Of a stretch of 41,945 bases of DNA, positions 18,590 through 41,098 are shown piece after piece. Numbering within the stretch: position 1 is the stretch's first letter; every line of letters starts with the position of its first letter. The notes under the pieces are model-generated. The model worked only from the letters and a program-made list of their open reading frames with translations, was not told the origin of the DNA and searched no databases. Origin of the DNA: Gemmatimonas sp. (GTDB lineage: Bacteria > Gemmatimonadota > Gemmatimonadetes > Gemmatimonadales > Gemmatimonadaceae); contig JAABRO010000025.1 of assembly GCA_011390885.1 (NCBI GenBank), positions 1 to 41,945 of the forward strand. Reading direction: 5' to 3'. Position numbers and translations under genes: made by a program.

Positions 18590-19423
18590 ATGTCATTCGC
18601 CTCCCGCCTCCACGCCGCGCTGCTCGTCGCGGCGATCGTCTCCGTCGGTGCGCTGCTGCCGCGGTCGACGCTGGCGCAGTCCGGTACGGGAGCGCGCGTG
18701 GCCGGCGAGGTGCGCGCCGACTCCACCGGCCGACCGGTCGCCGGCGCCGTCGTCTCGGTGGCGGGGAGCGATCGCACGACACGCACCGACACGCTCGGCG
18801 GCTTCGTGCTTGCCGGCGTGCCACCGGGCACGCCGACCCTCACCGTGCGCGCCATCGGCTTCGCCGCGCGCGAGGTGCCGCTTCGACTGGCCGACGGTGA
18901 CTCCATCGATGTCGCGGTCCGGCTCACCCGCGCATCACCAGAGCTGGCGGCGGTCACGGTCACGGCCTCCACCGAGCGGCGCAGCATCTTCTTCGACGAC
19001 TTCACGGCGCGGCGGCGCACGAGCAACGGCCGGTTCCTCGACCATTCGCAGTTCGCGCAGGACCTGCACCAGCCGCTCTCGACCATCCTGCGCACGCGCA
19101 TGCCAGGGGTGCGCATCGTGCGCTACGGCGGTGGGCGCATGGCGCTCGCCTCCAACCGCGGCGTGGACAGCTTCATGCTGACCCCGCAGGGGGACGCGTA
19201 CGACCGCAACCTGGGCGCGCCCAAGGCCTGCTACGTGCAGGTGATCATCAACAACGCGCTCGTGTATGGCGGCGGCCGCGAGGAGACGCTCTACAACGTG
19301 GACCTGCTGCAGCCGGAGCGCGTCGAAGCGGTCGAGTTCTACACCTCCTCGACGGTGCCGCCGGAGTTCAATCGCGGCAGCACCAGCACCTGCGGCGCGC
19401 TGGTGCTCTGGCTGCGTCCGTGA
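18590..19423 (+). CDS. Short exported protein: carboxypeptidase-regulatory-like domain plus TonB-plug domain
   Basis: A 277-residue protein with a signal peptide (MSFASRLHAALLVAAIVSVG, cut near LAQ), one CarboxypepD_reg-like beta-sandwich (about 36-115: VAGEVRADSTGRPVAGAVVS, DTLGGFVLAGVPPG, LTVRAIGFA) and a plug-like domain (about 120-277). The plug part has the usual LRTRMPGVRIV and VEAVEFYTSSTVPPEF elements. The 22-strand barrel of a TonB receptor is absent; the protein ends LVLWLRP. Cys214 and Cys268 match the last cysteine pair of the three paralogues at 21477-25803. It is most likely periplasmic or surface-attached. The ATG was picked at the signal peptide; the longer open frame upstream overlaps the divergent gene. 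Confidence 0.75.
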   Translation: MSFASRLHAALLVAAIVSVGALLPRSTLAQSGTGARVAGEVRADSTGRPVAGAVVSVAGSDRTTRTDTLGGFVLAGVPPGTPTLTVRAIGFAAREVPLRLADGDSIDVAVRLTRASPELAAVTVTASTERRSIFFDDFTARRRTSNGRFLDHSQFAQDLHQPLSTILRTRMPGVRIVRYGGGRMALASNRGVDSFMLTPQGDAYDRNLGAPKACYVQVIINNALVYGGGREETLYNVDLLQPERVEAVEFYTSSTVPPEFNRGSTSTCGALVLWLRP

Positions 19424-21476: not shown

Positions 21477-22901
21477 CTACGGGCGCAGTCCGAACTGCGT
21501 CCAAAAGATCACCAGCGCACAATCGCTCTGCACGAACTCCCCGAAGCGCGCCGGCGCGTACGCCTCCGACCGGTACACCTCCACGGCCGCGAACTGCTCC
21601 GCCGAGATCGCGTGCAGTTCCGCGAGCGTGGCGGGCAGGCCGTCCACGAGCACCGTGGCGCGGCAGGTGGTCACACCGAGGTTGCGGCCGTAGCCATAGA
21701 TCGCGAAGCGCGCCTCGTCGGTCTCGCCGGGCGCGGTGCGAAGCTCGAGCCCCGGCACGGCCGCCAGCGCGGCGCGCAGGGAGCCGGCCTCGCGAATGGC
21801 GGTGGTGTCCACGAACGTGGCGATCCCCTCGGCGCGCCGGGCCTCGAACTCCTCGCGGTCACGGCGAATCACCCGCCGCTCGGTCACCGCGATTCCCTCG
21901 AGGCCGGCGATCGCGAGCCCGCGGTCGAGCGCCACGATCACCTCGGGGGTGCCCTCGAAGAGCACATCCACCTGCTGGGCCATGGCCACGTAGCCGGCCG
22001 CCTGCGCAGCGAGCATGCGCGAGCCCGGGGGCACCTTCGCGATCGTGAAGCGTCCGTCCGCCCCGGCCACCACGGCGCTGTCCACGCCATCGATGGCGAC
22101 CTCGGCGTTGGGCACCGGCTGCTGGTCGGGGCCGATTACCCGCCCCACGATGGTGGGCCAGCGGTCGACCGGGCCATCGGCCGGTGCCAGCACCAGGTCC
22201 ACGCGCCGCAGCGGGCGCTGCTCGAGCGCCACCTGCAGCGCGCCGGACTGCAGCTCGGTGGAGAGGCCGATCATGGCCATGTCGCCCATGGCCGGCACAC
22301 CGCACACGGCGTACCCGCCCGTCGAGTCGGTGACGGCGTCGCGCTCCTCGAGCTGGCGGAGACGGGTGCGCGGCAGGATCTCCTCCCACTGCACGCGAAT
22401 GGCCGCCCCCGCCACGCGCGTCCGGTCGTCGGGCAGCCGCGCCGAGCCCACGAGCACGCCGCGATTCTCGCCGGCGGGCATCTCGGCCCGACAGACCCGT
22501 TCCCAGATGGTGGCCAGCGACGGCGTGGCGGCCACCGCGCTGTCCCACCGCGCCACGCCCTCGGGCCGCGCGACGACCAGCGCGCCCAGCCCGATCTCGT
22601 CGAGCGCGGGGTGATACACGGTGAGGCGCGTGATCGTCGCCTCCCCCACGAGCGTGAAGCGACCCAGCGAGTCGGCGGTCACGGACACGCCCCCGGGCTC
22701 CGCGAAGATGAACGCGTCGGCGAGCGGCGCGTTGGCGAGGCTGTCGAAGACGACGCCGCGCACGGTGTCGGGGGCAGCCGGCGCGATCGACGCTCGCCGC
22801 GAGGCGGCATGAGCGGACGGAGACCACGCGGCCGTGGCACCGGGCAGGAGGGCGGCGAGCGCGATCAGCGCGGCGGCGCGAGAGCCGGAAGGAAGGGACA
22901 T
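21477..22901 (-). CDS. Exported plug-only protein, paralogue C of a tandem triplet
   Basis: A 474-residue protein with a signal peptide (MSLPSGSRAAALIALAALLP). First regulatory-like beta-sandwich: DTVRGVVFDSLANAPLADAF with DSLGRFTLVG. A middle beta-domain holds Cys137 and Cys200. A second regulatory-like domain is about 250-320 (GRVIGPDQQPVPNAEVAIDG, PPGSRMLAAQAAGY). The plug-like C-terminus is about 330-474 (LEGIAVTERR, LRAALAAVPGLELRT, TTCRATVLVDGLPA, CALVIFWTQFGLRP) and holds Cys413 and Cys461. No receptor barrel follows. It is last of three co-directional paralogues, 77 nt after the middle one. No enzyme motif is visible; a periplasmic scaffold or carbohydrate/peptide-binding role is conceivable but unproven. 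ATG 22901 sits at the signal peptide. Confidence 0.8.
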   Translation of the reverse strand: MSLPSGSRAAALIALAALLPGATAAWSPSAHAASRRASIAPAAPDTVRGVVFDSLANAPLADAFIFAEPGGVSVTADSLGRFTLVGEATITRLTVYHPALDEIGLGALVVARPEGVARWDSAVAATPSLATIWERVCRAEMPAGENRGVLVGSARLPDDRTRVAGAAIRVQWEEILPRTRLRQLEERDAVTDSTGGYAVCGVPAMGDMAMIGLSTELQSGALQVALEQRPLRRVDLVLAPADGPVDRWPTIVGRVIGPDQQPVPNAEVAIDGVDSAVVAGADGRFTIAKVPPGSRMLAAQAAGYVAMAQQVDVLFEGTPEVIVALDRGLAIAGLEGIAVTERRVIRRDREEFEARRAEGIATFVDTTAIREAGSLRAALAAVPGLELRTAPGETDEARFAIYGYGRNLGVTTCRATVLVDGLPATLAELHAISAEQFAAVEVYRSEAYAPARFGEFVQSDCALVIFWTQFGLRP

Positions 22902-22978
22902 GCCGGTAAGATTGCCCACTCGCGGGTCGGACGGCACCGCCCGCCCCTCAACCCGGAGCCGGCGGAGGACGACCCGCG

Positions 22979-24424
22979 TCAACGATCGAGCCCCTGCGCC
23001 GTCCAGAGTGCCACCACCGCACAATCGCGCCCGCTCGCGGACTCCGCGAACTGCGGCGGCGCGACAGCGCGCGAGGCGTACGCCTCGGCGCCCGCCACCT
23101 CGTGGAACGGCACCGCGTTGAGCCGGTCGATCGAGGTCGGTCGCCCATCGACAAAGATGTGTACGCGGCAGTTCCCCGCCCCGCGCAGGTCGACCTTCCA
23201 GTCGGTGGGGTCGCCACCAGCCACCGCATTCCCCCCACGCAGGACGTACCGGGCCCGGATCCACGCGAGGCCGCTGAGCCACGGCACGAAGCCGCGGGCC
23301 GCGCGCCACTCGGCCGCGTTCGCAACCAGCGATACGGCCGGATCGACGCTCGCGCGGCGCCGCGCCGCGAACGCCGCCCGCTGGCCGGCCACGCTGTCCG
23401 TCACGCGCAGGGGCACCGCCACGCGCTGGCCATCACGCAGCTGCTCGAGGCGCACGACCCGCGCGAGCGTGATGCTCACGGGTGTCGCCTCGGTGGCCGT
23501 GACGTCGATCGCCTGCGCGACGGGCGTGTGCCCGACGGCCTGTGCCGACAGCATGCGCGAGCCCAGCGGCACGGCGGCGAGGCGGAACTCGCCCCAGCGA
23601 TCGGCGACGGCCGTGGCGGTCGCCACACCCTCCACGCTCACGCGCGCCTCCGCGACGGGGAAGCCCGTTTCATCGACGATGCGACCGCGCACGACACCGC
23701 CGGTGCTGTCGTCCCGGCGTCCGAGCAGCAGGTCGATCCGGCGCACGCGACGCGCGTCGCCCGCCAGGCGCACCACGCCACTCGCCACCTCCAGGCTCGT
23801 GGCCGCAAGGGCGAGTTCGGTGGCCGTGGGCACGTCGCACAGCGCCCAGGTGCCGACAGAATCGGTCACGGTGCGGCGCGTGGCCTCGTCATCGGGGGCG
23901 ACGTCCCGCCACGCGACCTCGACCGTCGCACCGGCCACGAGCACCGGTCCACCCGACGCGGCCGTATCCGGCGTCGCGAGCCGCGCGGATCCGACGAGGA
24001 TGCCGCGGGCCGTCGCGGGCGGCTCGCCGCCACAGGCCACCCGCCAGATCGTGGCGAACGACGGCGTGGCCAGCACGGCGTCGCGCCATGCGCGAGCCGC
24101 GGCCGGCCGCTGCGCCCCGATGCCGTCCAGCCCCATGACGTCGAGCGACGGGTGATGTACCTGGAGCGACTCCACGACCGAATCGCTCACGAGCACGAAG
24201 CGCCCGAGGCTGTCCGCCACGGCGCCCGCCACGTGCGGCCGCGCCACGATGATCGCGCCCGCGAGTGGCTCGCGGGCGAGCGAGTCGAAGACTGCGCCCG
24301 TGACCGTGTCCGGTCGTGACGCGGACGGCGCGGGCGTCTGGGCGCCGGCGGTGGCGATCGCGCCCCACGTGAGCGCGAGGAGCAGCGCGCACACCAGCGC
24401 GCCGCCGCGCCCTGCGACGCTCAC
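22979..24424 (-). CDS. Exported plug-only protein, paralogue B (diverged plug)
   Basis: A 481-residue paralogue with the same order: signal peptide (cut near AGAQ), beta-sandwich (DTVTGAVFDSLAREPLAGAI), middle domain with Cys131 and Cys196, second beta-sandwich (GRIVDETGFPVAEARVSVEG, PLGSRMLSAQAVGH), and plug-like end with Cys419 and Cys468. The plug N-terminus is the most diverged of the three: the LxGVTVT motif is replaced by LEQLRDGQRVAVPL, and a WLSGLAWIRARYVLRGG insert is present. The C-terminus ends LWTAQGLDR instead of GLRP. GTG start overlaps the upstream paralogue's TGA as GTGA, so the two are translationally coupled. Confidence 0.8.
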   Translation of the reverse strand: MSVAGRGGALVCALLLALTWGAIATAGAQTPAPSASRPDTVTGAVFDSLAREPLAGAIIVARPHVAGAVADSLGRFVLVSDSVVESLQVHHPSLDVMGLDGIGAQRPAAARAWRDAVLATPSFATIWRVACGGEPPATARGILVGSARLATPDTAASGGPVLVAGATVEVAWRDVAPDDEATRRTVTDSVGTWALCDVPTATELALAATSLEVASGVVRLAGDARRVRRIDLLLGRRDDSTGGVVRGRIVDETGFPVAEARVSVEGVATATAVADRWGEFRLAAVPLGSRMLSAQAVGHTPVAQAIDVTATEATPVSITLARVVRLEQLRDGQRVAVPLRVTDSVAGQRAAFAARRRASVDPAVSLVANAAEWRAARGFVPWLSGLAWIRARYVLRGGNAVAGGDPTDWKVDLRGAGNCRVHIFVDGRPTSIDRLNAVPFHEVAGAEAYASRAVAPPQFAESASGRDCAVVALWTAQGLDR

Positions 24425-25803
24425 GGCCGCAATCCGTACTTGGTCCAGAAGAGCACCACCGCGCAGTTGTCGCCGAGCGGCTGGTAGCGCGAAGGCGCGA
24501 ACGCCACCGTGGTGTAGAACTCCACCGCCGCGATGTTCTGCAGCGGAATGCGGTTGACCTCCTCGTTGTTCGTGATCGTGCCATCGAGATACACGTACGC
24601 GCGGCAGCCATTGCGGCCAAGAATCACGAAGTCGCTCGTGGGTCGCCTGGCGTCGGACTGCACGATCACGCCGGGCGTTTGCTGAATGGCCGCACGCACG
24701 TTCGGGTAGCTCGCGAGCATGGCCGAGTCCACGACGCGCCCGAAGCCCGCGCGCTTCCGCAGCTCGAACTCCTGCCGATCGAGGCGCAGGCTGGTCCGGG
24801 CGGTTACCGTCACCCCCTCGAGCTGCACCAGCTTGTCGAACGGGATCTCGAGGGGCGGCGCGTCGCCCGTCATCACCTCCACGAGCTGGCCCACCGGCTG
24901 GTAGCCGACGGCGCGCACGTACAGCATGCGCGAGCCCACGGGCACGTTGCTGAAGCGGAAGCGACCATCGGGGCCGGTGGTGATCGGTTCGTCGGCCCCG
25001 TCGAGCGCGAGCTGGATGTCGGCGAGCGGCGTACCCTCCCGGCTGCGCACCACGCCCTGGAGGGAGCCGCGATCCGTTTCGCTCCCGAGCACGAGGTCGA
25101 TGCGGCGGAGCGCGCGCGCATCGGGGGGCACCGTGACGATCCCGGACTGGTACTCGCGCGAGACCGCCGCCAGCGACACGTCGACGAAGTCCTCGATGCC
25201 GCAGATGAGGAAGTTGCCGAGCGAATCGGTGCGCACCTCACGCGAGCGGATGTCGCCGCCGCCGATCGCGTAGTCGGGCTTGGGCCACTGCGCGATCACG
25301 CTCGCACCGGCCACACGCGTGGTGCCATCGGCCAGGCGCGCGGTGCCCGACACGATGACCGTGCGTCCGCCGAGCGGGCGCGGCGAGTCGCACAGCCTGG
25401 GCCAGAGCGTGGCGTGGGACGGCGTGGCGAGGAGCACCTCCGCCCGCCGGCTGCCCGGACGCTCGGCGGTGAGCGCGCCGATGCCGAGCTGGTCGAGCAC
25501 GCCGTGATAGGCCGTGATGCGGGCACCGATGACATCGGTGAGGATCGCGAAGCGACCCGCCGAGTCGGTCACGCCCGTGGCGCCACCGGGCGCGACGATC
25601 ACGAAGGCCCCGGCGAGCGGCTCGCCCGCGAGGCTGTCGAACACCACCCCCCGCACCGTGTCGGCGGCGGAGCGCGCGCGCACCGTGTCGAGCACCGGCG
25701 GATCCTGCGCCCGGACGGCGCGAGGCGAGGCCAGGCAGGCGACGAGGGCGAGCAGCGCGCCGAGGTGCGCACGGGCGCGGGCGCGAACGCGGACGACCGG
25801 CAT
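24421..25803 (-). CDS. Exported plug-only protein, paralogue A (first of the triplet)
   Basis: A 460-residue protein, first of three. It has a signal peptide (about 1-33, ending AVRAQ), beta-sandwich one (DTVRGVVFDSLAGEPLAGAF, DSAGRFAI), a middle domain with Cys138 and Cys201, beta-sandwich two (GVVRSREGTPLADIQLALDG, PVGSRMLYVRAVGY), and a plug domain with the cleanest family signature: LEGVTVTARTSL, IQQTPGVIV, Cys400 in NGCRAYVYLDG, IAAVEFYTTVAFAP and Cys447 in NCAVVLFWTKYGLRP. As in its siblings the barrel is missing. The ATG was chosen at the start of the signal peptide. The upstream open frame into the divergent tgt region is not supported. A 9-bp inverted repeat lies in the divergent promoter region. 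Confidence 0.82.
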   Translation of the reverse strand: MPVVRVRARARAHLGALLALVACLASPRAVRAQDPPVLDTVRARSAADTVRGVVFDSLAGEPLAGAFVIVAPGGATGVTDSAGRFAILTDVIGARITAYHGVLDQLGIGALTAERPGSRRAEVLLATPSHATLWPRLCDSPRPLGGRTVIVSGTARLADGTTRVAGASVIAQWPKPDYAIGGGDIRSREVRTDSLGNFLICGIEDFVDVSLAAVSREYQSGIVTVPPDARALRRIDLVLGSETDRGSLQGVVRSREGTPLADIQLALDGADEPITTGPDGRFRFSNVPVGSRMLYVRAVGYQPVGQLVEVMTGDAPPLEIPFDKLVQLEGVTVTARTSLRLDRQEFELRKRAGFGRVVDSAMLASYPNVRAAIQQTPGVIVQSDARRPTSDFVILGRNGCRAYVYLDGTITNNEEVNRIPLQNIAAVEFYTTVAFAPSRYQPLGDNCAVVLFWTKYGLRP

Positions 25804-27245: not shown

Positions 27246-27881
27246 ATGACGCAACAGCTCTCGATCGACCTCTACTCCGACGTTGTCTGCCCGTGGTGCT
27301 GGGTGGGCAAGCGCCGGCTCGAACGGGTGCTGCGCGAACTGCCGGAGGTGACGGCCGAGATCCGTTGGCGTCCGTTCCGCTTGCGCCCCGACATGCCGCC
27401 CGCGGGTGAGGACTGGCGCGAGATCATCGAGACGAAGTTCGGCGGTGCCGAGCGTGCCGCGATGATGTTCGCGCGCGTGGCAGAGGCGGGGCGCACCGAG
27501 GGCATCGACTTCGCCTTCGATCGCATCACCCGATCGCCGAACACCATGAACGCGCACCGCCTCTTGCTCTGGGCGGGCGCGTCGGCGTGGCCGCTGGCGG
27601 AGGCGCTGCATGCCGCCTACTTCGTGGAGGGGCGTGACATCGGTGATCGCGACGTGCTCGTGACGGTCGCGGACGAAGCCGGACTCGACGCCGCGGCGGC
27701 GCGCGACATGCTCGACGGCGACGCGCACGCGGCCGAGGTCGTGGCGAGTCAGCGCGAGGCGTCGCGGCTCGGCGTGACGGGCGTGCCGTTCACCGTGCTC
27801 GCTGGGCGGCTGGGCGTGAGTGGTGCGCAGCCGCCGGAGGTGTTTCGCGAGGCGATCCGGCAGGCGCTCGCGAACGGCTGA
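27246..27881 (+). CDS. DsbA-family (FrnE-like) thiol oxidoreductase, CPWC
   Basis: A 211-residue cytoplasmic thioredoxin-fold protein with no signal peptide. The active site is CPWC (Cys15, Cys18) after SIDLYSDVV, and the cis-Pro loop is GVTGVPF. A helical insertion (about 60-160, with RSPNTMNAHRLLLWA) is typical of the FrnE/2-hydroxychromene-isomerase-like branch, whose members act in oxidative stress or polyketide-related redox chemistry. It starts 4 nt after the tgt stop, so the two are cotranscribed; a shared function is not evident. Confidence 0.92.
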   Translation: MTQQLSIDLYSDVVCPWCWVGKRRLERVLRELPEVTAEIRWRPFRLRPDMPPAGEDWREIIETKFGGAERAAMMFARVAEAGRTEGIDFAFDRITRSPNTMNAHRLLLWAGASAWPLAEALHAAYFVEGRDIGDRDVLVTVADEAGLDAAAARDMLDGDAHAAEVVASQREASRLGVTGVPFTVLAGRLGVSGAQPPEVFREAIRQALANG

Positions 27882-37837: not shown

Positions 37838-40800
37838 TTACTGGTTCGTGCGCAGCCAGCGCGTGAACTGCCGCATCAGCTCGTCCTCGTCCTCCCCGAA
37901 GCCGAAGCCGCCGCCGCTCCCTGCGCTGGCCAGCTTCTCCACGCGCAGCAGCTGCGTCATGGTGCGGCCACCGGCGGTGAGCGTCACGCGATAGTGACCG
38001 CTTTCCACCAGCGGCGCCGCTCCGCCGCCACGGCCACCGCGGCCGCCGCCGCCGAACGGGTTGAAGTCGGGGATCGCCTCGCGCATCGCGGCGAACACCT
38101 GCTGGATGCCACCCGCCGCCTCGGCGGGACCGGCGCCCTGGCCACCACGTCCGCCCGCCCCGGCCGTGGGGAAGCTGGGCGTGGGACGCGTCTCACCCGG
38201 ACGCTCGTTGCGCGCGCCGGCCGCGGCACCACCGCCGAAGCCACCGCCGCCGAACCCGCCACCGCCGCCCATGAGCCCCTGCATGCCGGCCGGCCCCTGT
38301 GCGATCGCGTTCCGCGCCATGGTGATCGTGGCGGCGGGAATGCCGCCGTCCTTCTCGAGCGAATCGAGCACGGCGATGATGCGCTGCGCCTGCCGCGCGC
38401 TGTCACGCGCCTGCGCCGGCGAGAGCGGCGGCGCGGGGAGCGGCTTGCCGCGGAAGTTCCACGACACGCGATGCAGTCCGGGACCGCCCGGGCCGTTCAG
38501 CGTGGCGAGCGTGTCACCGGTCGCATCCTGGATCACGATCGAGGCGCGCCCGGTGCCCTGCGCCACGCGATACCACAGGTCGGCGCCGTACTGCGGGCTG
38601 GGTGCCTGGAACAGCTTGTGACCGTTGCTGCCGCCGTTGATGGGCGGCTCGCCCCACTGGAACGCCGTACGCGGCGCGAAGAGGTGCGCCGAGGCCGTCG
38701 CCACCGAGGACGTGAGCTGCTGCAGCGGCGCGATGTCGGCGATCCAGATGGACCGGCCGTGCGTGCCCGCCACCAACTCGCGGTCACGCGGGTGAATGAT
38801 CAGGTCGTGCACCGGCACCGTCGGGAAGCCCGTCATGAAGCGCTGCCACGACTGGCCGCGGTTCACCGAGGCGTACACGCCAACGTCCGTACCCACGAAG
38901 AGCAGGTTCGGATTGGTGGGGTCCTCGCGGATCACGTGCACGAAGTCGGCGTGCCCGGTGGGCAGGTTGCTCGCGATGCTCGTGAAGCTCTTCCCGAAGT
39001 CGCGCGTCATGTACACGTACGGCGTGTAGTTGTCGCGGCGATGGTCGTCGAAGGTGACGTAGAAGATCGCTTCGTTCTCGTACGACGGCTCGATGCGCGA
39101 CACGTACGCGCCGGCGGGGAGCCCGGGGAAGTTCTTCGTCACCTCCTCCCACGCGCCGCCGTCGTTCTTCGTGAGCCACACGCGCCCGTCGTCGGTGCCC
39201 GCGAAGAGCAGCCCCGCGCGGATCGGCGACTCGTTGAGCGAGACCACCGTGCCGAACGTCTCGGCGCCCGTCACGTCGGGGGTGATGCCACCGGTCGTGC
39301 GGAGCGCGACGCGCAGCTTGGCCGTGTCGGCGTACGAGAGTTCACCCGAGATGAGGAACATGTCGTCGCCGTACTTCACGCTCTTGAGCACCTTGTTGGC
39401 GCCGAAGTACAGCGTGCCCGGATTGTGCTTCGAGATGATGTACGGCGTGTTCCAGTTCCAGCGCAGCTGCAGGTCGAGCGAATCCTGCTTCTGCTGCGCG
39501 CGGAACGCGGCGATGCGGCGGCGCATCTCGGCCGTCTCCGGCTTCGACTCGTCACCACGCACCACGGCGATGGAGTCGTTCCACGCGTTGTAGCCGTCGC
39601 GCCAGTTCGGCTTGCGCAGCGCGCTGCGCTGGCCCGCCGCCCAGTCGTAGCGGCCCATGTTGCCGCCCTGCGACGTGGAGTACAGGATGTTCGGATTCGT
39701 CCAGTCCTGCTGCGTGACGAAGCCGTCACCGCCGCCCACGTTGTGCCACATCGCGTTCGTGATCGCGCCCTGCCGGCGACGGCTCGGGCCGCACCAGGAG
39801 CCGTTGTCCTGCAGGCCACCGCACACGCGGTACGGCACCTGCATGTCCACCGAGATGTTGTAGAACTGCCCGATCGCGAAGGTGTTCGGGAACTCCCACG
39901 TGCCGCCGCCGTCGAGCGTGATGCCGAGGCCGCCGTCGTTGCCCACGATGATGCGCCCGGGATCGTTCGGGTCGAACCACATGGCATGGTGGTCCACGTG
40001 CAGCCCCACGGTGGTGTTGCCGGCCGTCTTGCCGCCATCACGCGAGTACTTCACGGGCGTGGACGACCAGAACACCACGTCGGGGTTGGTGGGGTGCACG
40101 CGCACCTGCGAGTAGTAGAACGGGCGCACGTTCTCGGGATTGCGGTACTCCCAGGTCACGCCGCCGTCCGCGGAGCGGTACAGGCCGCTCGGGCGGCGCT
40201 GCGGACGCGCCCCGCGCTCGGGGCGCGCGTTGGGTGCCGTGTCCGCCTCCACCATGGTGTACATGATGTCGGGGTTGCTGGCCGAGATCGCGATCTCGAT
40301 GCGCCCCTTCATCGTGGCGGGGAAGCCGCCGCCCTTCACCTCGGTCCACGTCGCGCCGGCGTCGGTGCTCTTCCAGAGCGCCGAGCCCGGGCCGCCGGAG
40401 TTCAGGAAGTACGGACCGCGCACGCGCTGGTAGCTGGACGCGAAGATGATGTCCGGGTTCTTCGGATTGATCTGCACATCCACGAAGCCGGTCTTGTCAT
40501 CGATGAACTTGATGAGGTTCCAGGTCGTGCCGCCGTCGGTGCTCTTGTAGAGGCCGCGCTCCTTGTTGGGCCCCCACACGTGGCCGAGCGCCGCCACGTA
40601 CACCACGTTGGCGTTGCGCGGGTCCACCTGGATGCGCGCGATCTGGCGCGTGTCGGCGAGCCCCATGAAGCGCCACGACTTGCCGCCGTCGGTGGTCTTG
40701 TAGAGGCCGCCGCCGGGGGAGATGGAGTTGCGCGAGTTGGGCTCGCCGGTGCCCCAGTACACCACGTTGGTGTCGCTCGGCGCGATGGCGAGGTCACCGC

Positions 40801-41098
40801 CCGACGCGACGCGCGCGGTGTCGAGCACCGGGAAGAACGTGGTGCCGCCGTTGATGGTCTTCCACACGCCGCCGGCGGCGGTGGACACATAGAAAGTGCG
40901 CGACGGCGAGGCGATGCCTTCGACGTCCACGATGCGGCCGGCCATGTTGGCGGGGCCGATTTCGCGCCAGCGCAGGCCGCCTATGACCTGAGCCGCGGCG
41001 GCGTCTTCGGGGGGCGATCCGGCGGGGTCCTGTTGCGCGCCCGCCGGGGCCGCGAGCACGGCCAGCGAGAGGGTCGCGAGGGAGAGGGTGCGTCTCAT
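37838..41098 (-). CDS. Exported BNR/sortilin-type beta-propeller protein (VPS10-like glycosyl-hydrolase-annotated family)
   Basis: A 1086-residue secreted protein with signal peptide MRRTLSLATLSLAVLAAPAG. The body is a run of Asp-box (BNR) repeats, among them KTTDGGKSWRF, KSTDGGTTWNL, KSTDAGATWTEV, RSADGGVTWEY, MTRDFGKSFTS and ASVNRGQSWQRF, forming one or two large propellers as in sortilin/VPS10-like proteins. Automatic annotation often calls this family glycosyl hydrolase, but no sialidase Arg triad or Glu/Tyr pair is evident. Residues about 936-1026 contain a Gly-rich insert (GGGGGFGGGGFGGGAAAG, then GGGGRGGRGGGAA), and the last ~60 residues form a beta-domain (VESGHYRVTLTAGGRT). It is probably a periplasmic or secreted binding or degradative protein; the ligand is unknown. 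Confidence 0.88.
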   Translation of the reverse strand: MRRTLSLATLSLAVLAAPAGAQQDPAGSPPEDAAAAQVIGGLRWREIGPANMAGRIVDVEGIASPSRTFYVSTAAGGVWKTINGGTTFFPVLDTARVASGGDLAIAPSDTNVVYWGTGEPNSRNSISPGGGLYKTTDGGKSWRFMGLADTRQIARIQVDPRNANVVYVAALGHVWGPNKERGLYKSTDGGTTWNLIKFIDDKTGFVDVQINPKNPDIIFASSYQRVRGPYFLNSGGPGSALWKSTDAGATWTEVKGGGFPATMKGRIEIAISASNPDIMYTMVEADTAPNARPERGARPQRRPSGLYRSADGGVTWEYRNPENVRPFYYSQVRVHPTNPDVVFWSSTPVKYSRDGGKTAGNTTVGLHVDHHAMWFDPNDPGRIIVGNDGGLGITLDGGGTWEFPNTFAIGQFYNISVDMQVPYRVCGGLQDNGSWCGPSRRRQGAITNAMWHNVGGGDGFVTQQDWTNPNILYSTSQGGNMGRYDWAAGQRSALRKPNWRDGYNAWNDSIAVVRGDESKPETAEMRRRIAAFRAQQKQDSLDLQLRWNWNTPYIISKHNPGTLYFGANKVLKSVKYGDDMFLISGELSYADTAKLRVALRTTGGITPDVTGAETFGTVVSLNESPIRAGLLFAGTDDGRVWLTKNDGGAWEEVTKNFPGLPAGAYVSRIEPSYENEAIFYVTFDDHRRDNYTPYVYMTRDFGKSFTSIASNLPTGHADFVHVIREDPTNPNLLFVGTDVGVYASVNRGQSWQRFMTGFPTVPVHDLIIHPRDRELVAGTHGRSIWIADIAPLQQLTSSVATASAHLFAPRTAFQWGEPPINGGSNGHKLFQAPSPQYGADLWYRVAQGTGRASIVIQDATGDTLATLNGPGGPGLHRVSWNFRGKPLPAPPLSPAQARDSARQAQRIIAVLDSLEKDGGIPAATITMARNAIAQGPAGMQGLMGGGGGFGGGGFGGGAAAGARNERPGETRPTPSFPTAGAGGRGGQGAGPAEAAGGIQQVFAAMREAIPDFNPFGGGGRGGRGGGAAPLVESGHYRVTLTAGGRTMTQLLRVEKLASAGSGGGFGFGEDEDELMRQFTRWLRTNQ

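Follow-up and report, generated by a model that had tools for sequence, protein, structure and literature searches.

The plug of a TonB-dependent transporter is a gate inside the transporter barrel. What would a plug do in a protein that has no barrel? The question is raised by three adjacent genes, here termed A, B and C, in a contig of Gemmatimonas sp. (JAABRO010000025.1, assembly GCA_011390885.1), whose whole stretch of 41,945 nucleotides is referred to as the window. Each gene encodes a signal peptide, beta-sandwiches of the transthyretin-like (TTR-like) type and a plug at the C-terminal end (Table 1). A first-pass annotation, made from the letters of the DNA, described three paralogues of 460, 481 and 474 residues on one strand, which the coordinates and translations reproduce exactly. 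Its tally of three plug genes was incomplete, since the window also has gene D, located beyond a neighbouring helicase gene and overlapped by a 530-aa antisense frame without a Pfam match.

Table 1. Positions in the window of the four plug genes and of the parts of protein A
Feature	Position	Strand	Remarks
Gene A	25803-24421	-	460 aa; signal peptide, three TTR-like sandwiches and barrel-less plug; Cys 138/201/400/447
Gene B	24424-22979	-	481 aa; GTG start; Cys 131/196/419/468; plug most diverged of the three
Gene C	22901-21477	-	474 aa; Cys 137/200/413/461
Gene D	18590-19423	+	277 aa (start codon inferred); signal peptide, one sandwich and barrel-less plug; Cys 214/268
A signal peptide, residues 1-32	25708..25803	-	cleavage between AxA and Q; A32/Q33 kept in 87-88% of homologues
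A sandwich 1, residues 48-126	25426..25662	-	AlphaFold2 model
A sandwich 2 ('middle domain'), residues ~148-240	25084..25362	-	model and match to 3e8v, Z 10.9
A sandwich 3, residues 245-321	24841..25071	-	resembles NTE domain of SusC; 9hfj Z 12.2, 5aq0 Z 13.3
A plug, residues 338-460 and stop	24421..24792	-	full-length and plug-alone models, fold matches
A Cys138 codon (middle pair)	25390..25392	-	
A Cys201 codon (middle pair)	25201..25203	-	
A Cys400 codon (plug pair)	24604..24606	-	
A Cys447 codon (plug pair)	24463..24465	-	

A tandem triplet of plugs and sandwiches

The three genes are closely packed. Because the GTG start of B overlaps the stop codon of A by 4 nt and C follows B after 77 bp, A, B and C may form one transcription unit; a scan for promoters and terminators found none. 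Protein A shares 36-40% identity with B and C. The coding sequence ends 6-7 residues past the last plug strand, followed after 190 bp by a gene for a DEAD-box helicase with a DbpA domain, and a divergent tgt gene lies upstream. No barrel gene or barrel fragment adjoins the triplet on either side, in agreement with the earlier description of a triplet without an outer-membrane barrel.

Two other genes of the window encode recognizable proteins. The gene directly after tgt (~27250-27881, + strand), at a distance of ~1.4 kb from the triplet, is a DsbA-family gene with a thioredoxin fold (FrnE-like, CPWC). No signal peptide is seen in its product, which is probably cytoplasmic and likely unrelated to the triplet. 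At 37838-41098 (- strand), a 1086-aa protein has Sortilin-Vps10/BNR repeats and what looks like a signal peptide.

The domain order proposed in the first-pass annotation is retained for the signal peptide, the sandwiches and the plug end, but its 'middle domain' is a second CarboxypepD_reg/transthyretin-like sandwich, as indicated by Pfam and by a fold match. Pfam detects CarboxypepD_reg in A, B and C, and the Plug family in A at 27.0 bits (cut-off 23.9). Protein C scores 23.2, slightly under the cut-off, while the plug of B is too diverged for a Pfam Plug match, yet can be aligned together with both of its cysteines. PF13620 and PF13715 are present in all 43 members scanned, and no peptidase family was found in Pfam scans of the triplet and these members. 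In A, a lipobox (LVAC) at C23 is a possible alternative to the AxA cleavage site.

A full-length structure was predicted for A alone of the three (AlphaFold2, 43 sequences, mean pLDDT 85.5). In this model, sandwich 3 superposes on the NTE domain of SusC (9hfj) over 80 residues at 1.9 Å, and also matches a domain of carboxypeptidase D (5aq0). As the whole-protein fold search was dominated by the repeated sandwiches and uninformative for the plug, residues 327-460 were modelled separately (pLDDT 84.9, pTM 0.79). All significant PDB matches of this plug-alone model are TonB-dependent transporters (6sli_B, E 7.7e-5), the best being 6z9a_B (Z 9.1, 3.2 Å, 106 residues), and the plug fold of A is predicted to be complete. 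Residues 331-338, ahead of the plug, have low confidence in the model and appear flexible. A lead from a fold match to the BAM complex of F. johnsoniae (9n2d_E; PMC12611786) was dropped, having no tie to plugs.

Among the closest known systems are the SusC/RagA-type TonB-dependent transporters (PF13715, PF07715 and PF00593; TIGR04056), in which an NTE-like sandwich, a TonB-box-like segment and a plug occur in the same order. In contrast to these, the family described here lacks a barrel, has three sandwiches where the transporters have one, and carries two cysteine pairs; it scores 26.5 bits with TIGR04056 against a cut-off of 368.25, and in the NTE part only. Since the 22-strand barrel is a defining feature and is absent, the family is not a TonB-dependent transporter. 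With the transthyretin-like domain of carboxypeptidase D (PF13620) it shares the fold of sandwich 3, but has no peptidase domain; with the plugs of FepA and other siderophore receptors (PF07715) it shares the plug fold, but here a cysteine pair would close it. The domains are already known and their arrangement is a new variation. No family in Pfam, NCBIfam, PHROGs or PADLOC covers the whole protein, and a search of open-access papers found no literature on barrel-less plug proteins. A possible parallel is the combination of M56/BlaR1 and a plug in Bacteroidota, for which documentation was not found.

Two cysteine pairs and the domains that carry them

The four cysteines attributed to each mature protein are correct to the residue. 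The only others are in signal peptides (C23 in A and C12 in B). In the model of A, C138 is at the end of the helix following sandwich 1 and C201 lies within strand 197-204 of sandwich 2, while C400 and C447 are immediately ahead of strand 401-406 and of the last plug strand, 448-454, respectively.

Conservation of these positions is almost complete. Among 61 aligned full-length homologues, the columns of C138 and C201 hold cysteine in 61 of 61 each and those of C400 and C447 in 60 of 61 each; all other mature positions of the same proteins contain 8 cysteines in 26,800 residues. The single exception to the plug pair is a tandem copy (L094:118-1389, - strand) that ends short of the plug end, and both plug cysteines are gone. 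The first-pass annotation had anticipated that barrel-less homologues would keep all four cysteines. Profile searches bear this out, with exceptions patterned by domain: among all barrel-less members read, both middle cysteines are present in 134 of 138 middle domains and both plug cysteines in 136 of 144 plug modules, counting identical matched sequences once and including close relatives.

The exceptions to the middle pair are forms of ~350 aa without sandwich 1, which still have two cysteines ahead of sandwich 3. Those to the plug pair are one plug cut by a contig end and a group of variant plugs, here called type II (L158, L161, L165, L168; also L139 and L140). Other size classes behave similarly. 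Gene D has the plug pair only (C214/C268), and the plug pair is the only pair common to the five short forms of the same genome. Forms of ~565 aa without a plug have no plug pair and two other pairs, and those of ~850 aa have three pairs; a few members of the family carry additional cysteines. The 14 transporter stretches of the same genome contain one cysteine in total, located elsewhere than the family positions, and two transporters found by the plug profile have none at the plug-pair positions. A VKOR-type disulfide oxidase is encoded in the genome.

The alignments show that the cysteine pairs are inherited together with their own domains, and this all-or-none behaviour, domain by domain, is what disulfides predict. 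Co-loss and co-inheritance of the cysteines by domain also support pairing within domains, so that each pair is very likely a domain-internal disulfide formed in the periplasm. The pair 138-201 would staple the helix after sandwich 1 onto sandwich 2, and the pair 400-447 would tie the strand before a 'DG' turn to the last plug strand. The interpretation offered in the first-pass annotation, of one disulfide in the middle domain and one closing the plug of an exported protein, is supported overall, and none of the observations that it had named as contrary was made.

In type II plugs, C400 is kept and its partner is located ~12-16 residues upstream, an apparent switch of disulfide partner judging from the alignment; the last strand reads NGV..IyT and is transporter-like. 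Two groups of longer proteins, L153, L154, L155 and L156 (~850-900 aa) and L149-L152 (~565 aa), are fusions with an N-terminal CarboxypepD_reg domain. The L149-L156 fusions also contain an extra domain of ~230 aa that has no Pfam match and its own cysteine pair.

A family of Gemmatimonadota

The genome that carries the triplet (4.07 Mb) is rich in such genes. A search with A recovers six full-length members, consisting of A, B and C, two in tandem on contig C62 and one on contig C6, in addition to short members on C12, C61 and C33. The plug profile gives 14 matches in this genome, and the family total is about a dozen. Across Gemmatimonadota, the plug profile finds members in 116 of 150 genomes, frequently ten copies or more in one genome and at least 19 matching places in the richest; with few exceptions, a transporter would not fit into the open frames at the places listed. 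The records of relatives name Gemmatimonadaceae and other Gemmatimonadota.

In the two other phyla sampled the family is scarce. Among 118 sampled genomes of Bacteroidota, the phylum of Fibrisoma, barrel-less matches are found in two, and in three further genomes the matching frames are long enough for a transporter. None of 119 sampled genomes of Acidobacteriota, the phylum of a Terriglobia record, appears to have a barrel-less member, and all matches listed there are partial; the one whose frame is short, L175 with 457 aa, continues beyond the plug. The short relatives from Bacteroidota differ from each other, as L170 has both plug cysteines and L171, from another genome, has neither and ends in LGGVILIWTK.

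The plug derives from the plugs of transporters, which would be compatible with decaying remnants of TonB-dependent receptors, that is, pseudogenes. This reading is hardly credible and is refuted by conservation. In 127 non-redundant members the reading frame ends no more than 60 aa after the plug. This uniform stop, the family-specific residues F346, R349, P437 and W453, and cysteines that are invariant phylum-wide point to long purifying selection, shown here by sequence comparison across the phylum at a divergence of ~0.6 changes per site on each terminal branch. In a tree of 60 full-length proteins, A, B and C group together with moderate support (82/70) inside a six-member clade, B and C being joined at 95/95, and local duplication has occurred repeatedly at several loci. 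These proteins almost certainly constitute a large, mainly Gemmatimonadota family with a signal peptide, sandwiches of the SusC-NTE/CarboxypepD_reg type, a complete TonB-receptor plug and no barrel.

Genomic neighbours and candidate functions

A plug that occurs alone throughout a phylum, closed by a conserved cysteine pair, suggests that the plug can exist as a domain in its own right. The isolated plug of FepA behaves as unfolded and binds siderophore weakly, and disulfides within the FepA plug block transport (reviewed in PMC11658791). Both observations fit a plug pair that would stand in for the stabilising role of the surrounding barrel, yielding a stable, soluble and locked plug. Such a plug would be unable to shut a pore, and TonB would be unable to remodel it for transport; not being a gate, it would be left with a role as a binding or adaptor part. 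The family is a natural test of what lets a plug fold without a barrel.

The same considerations bear on split transporters, in which the plug would act in trans with a barrel encoded elsewhere. The complete plug fold would suit this arrangement, which is nevertheless very improbable: a plug-less barrel gene is not seen beside the triplet, the SusC next to one family member (L066) has its own plug, the three N-terminal domains are bulky, and a disulfide-locked plug could not be remodelled, consistent with the block of FepA transport by intraplug disulfides (PMC11658791).

The preferred explanation is that the plug proteins are putative binding or adaptor modules, located either in the periplasm or on the cell surface, which support uptake of the TonB/SusCD type. 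They might hold an imported ligand, or contact TonB or SusC via the parts that they share with transporters, and the many diverged paralogues would provide different specificities. The link to uptake is suggested by SusCD neighbourhoods and by a TonB-box-like segment. Neighbouring genes were called by a conservation-based gene caller. The order SusD-DUF4397-family gene is co-directional in L030 (the genome of the triplet), L066 and L108, SusD-DUF4397 is adjacent to a convergent family gene in L070/L105, and a family gene adjoins SusC-SusD in L091 and L092. Accessory genes of SusCD loci, such as DUF4397, share with the family a place beside SusCD in a few loci, and the likeness is one of position alone.

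Family genes are located beside SusCD genes in two lineages, while about nine tenths of the family loci read have no SusC or SusD neighbour. Because most loci are without a transporter neighbour, an accessory role in outer-membrane uptake is tentative, and on present sequence evidence it is best regarded as a reasonable possibility. A conserved operon partner was considered and rejected, as the gene clusters beside the family are mostly restricted to single lineages; the recurrent neighbours include FMN reductase, luciferase-like, alpha/beta hydrolase, ABC and permease genes.

The absence of transporter neighbours at most loci would equally suit structural or adhesive envelope proteins. In these the sandwiches would act as spacers, like those of S-layer proteins, TIE proteins and pilins, with the locked plug forming a stable cap that binds other envelope proteins and has no role in uptake. 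The best whole-chain fold matches are indeed surface proteins of stacked sandwiches (4oq1, 6fwv, SpaA/SpaD), and an NCBIfam model of an anammox S-layer glycoprotein matches weakly. However, these whole-chain matches reflect the repeated TTR-like domains and superpose poorly (rmsd ~20 Å), beyond the plug there is no signal for sorting or anchoring, and SusCD neighbours do occur in two lineages. Fold matches carry no information on function, and an envelope role of this kind appears rather unlikely.

The TonB-box-like segment lies between sandwich 3 and the plug and keeps the pattern L[DE]xVx[VI]x[AG], resembling the TonB-box region of transporters. In SusC, the TonB box VDEVVV also sits behind the NTE (PMC7782687). 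If the segment were functional, the soluble proteins could compete for TonB or regulate it, by titrating or gating it. Its position between the NTE-like sandwich and the plug, in a stretch that is flexible in the model, and the five TonB_C matches in the genome favour this possibility. However, the family reads LDTV[KR][VI]xA where transporters read Lx[AE]VVV[TS]A, K/R replacing the central V/T of the box in half of the members, and B has lost the segment (LEQLRDGQ). Competition for or regulation of TonB is quite unlikely, and the segment may be a relic.

Taken as a whole, the uptake-supporting binding module is the best explanation of the family and falls a little short of being probable. Rather doubtful is the specific proposal that Gemmatimonadota have made the plug into a covalently locked, soluble module of many paralogues, whose periplasmic binding partners would be TonB or the ligands of transporters, as a barrel-free component of uptake. 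The family suggests that the Gemmatimonadota envelope has a highly duplicated part that is so far undescribed. A full-length relative is encoded in the cultured Gemmatirosa kalamazoonensis (NZ_CP007129.1, 678571-679899, a 1.1-Mb plasmid record), which makes the question testable.
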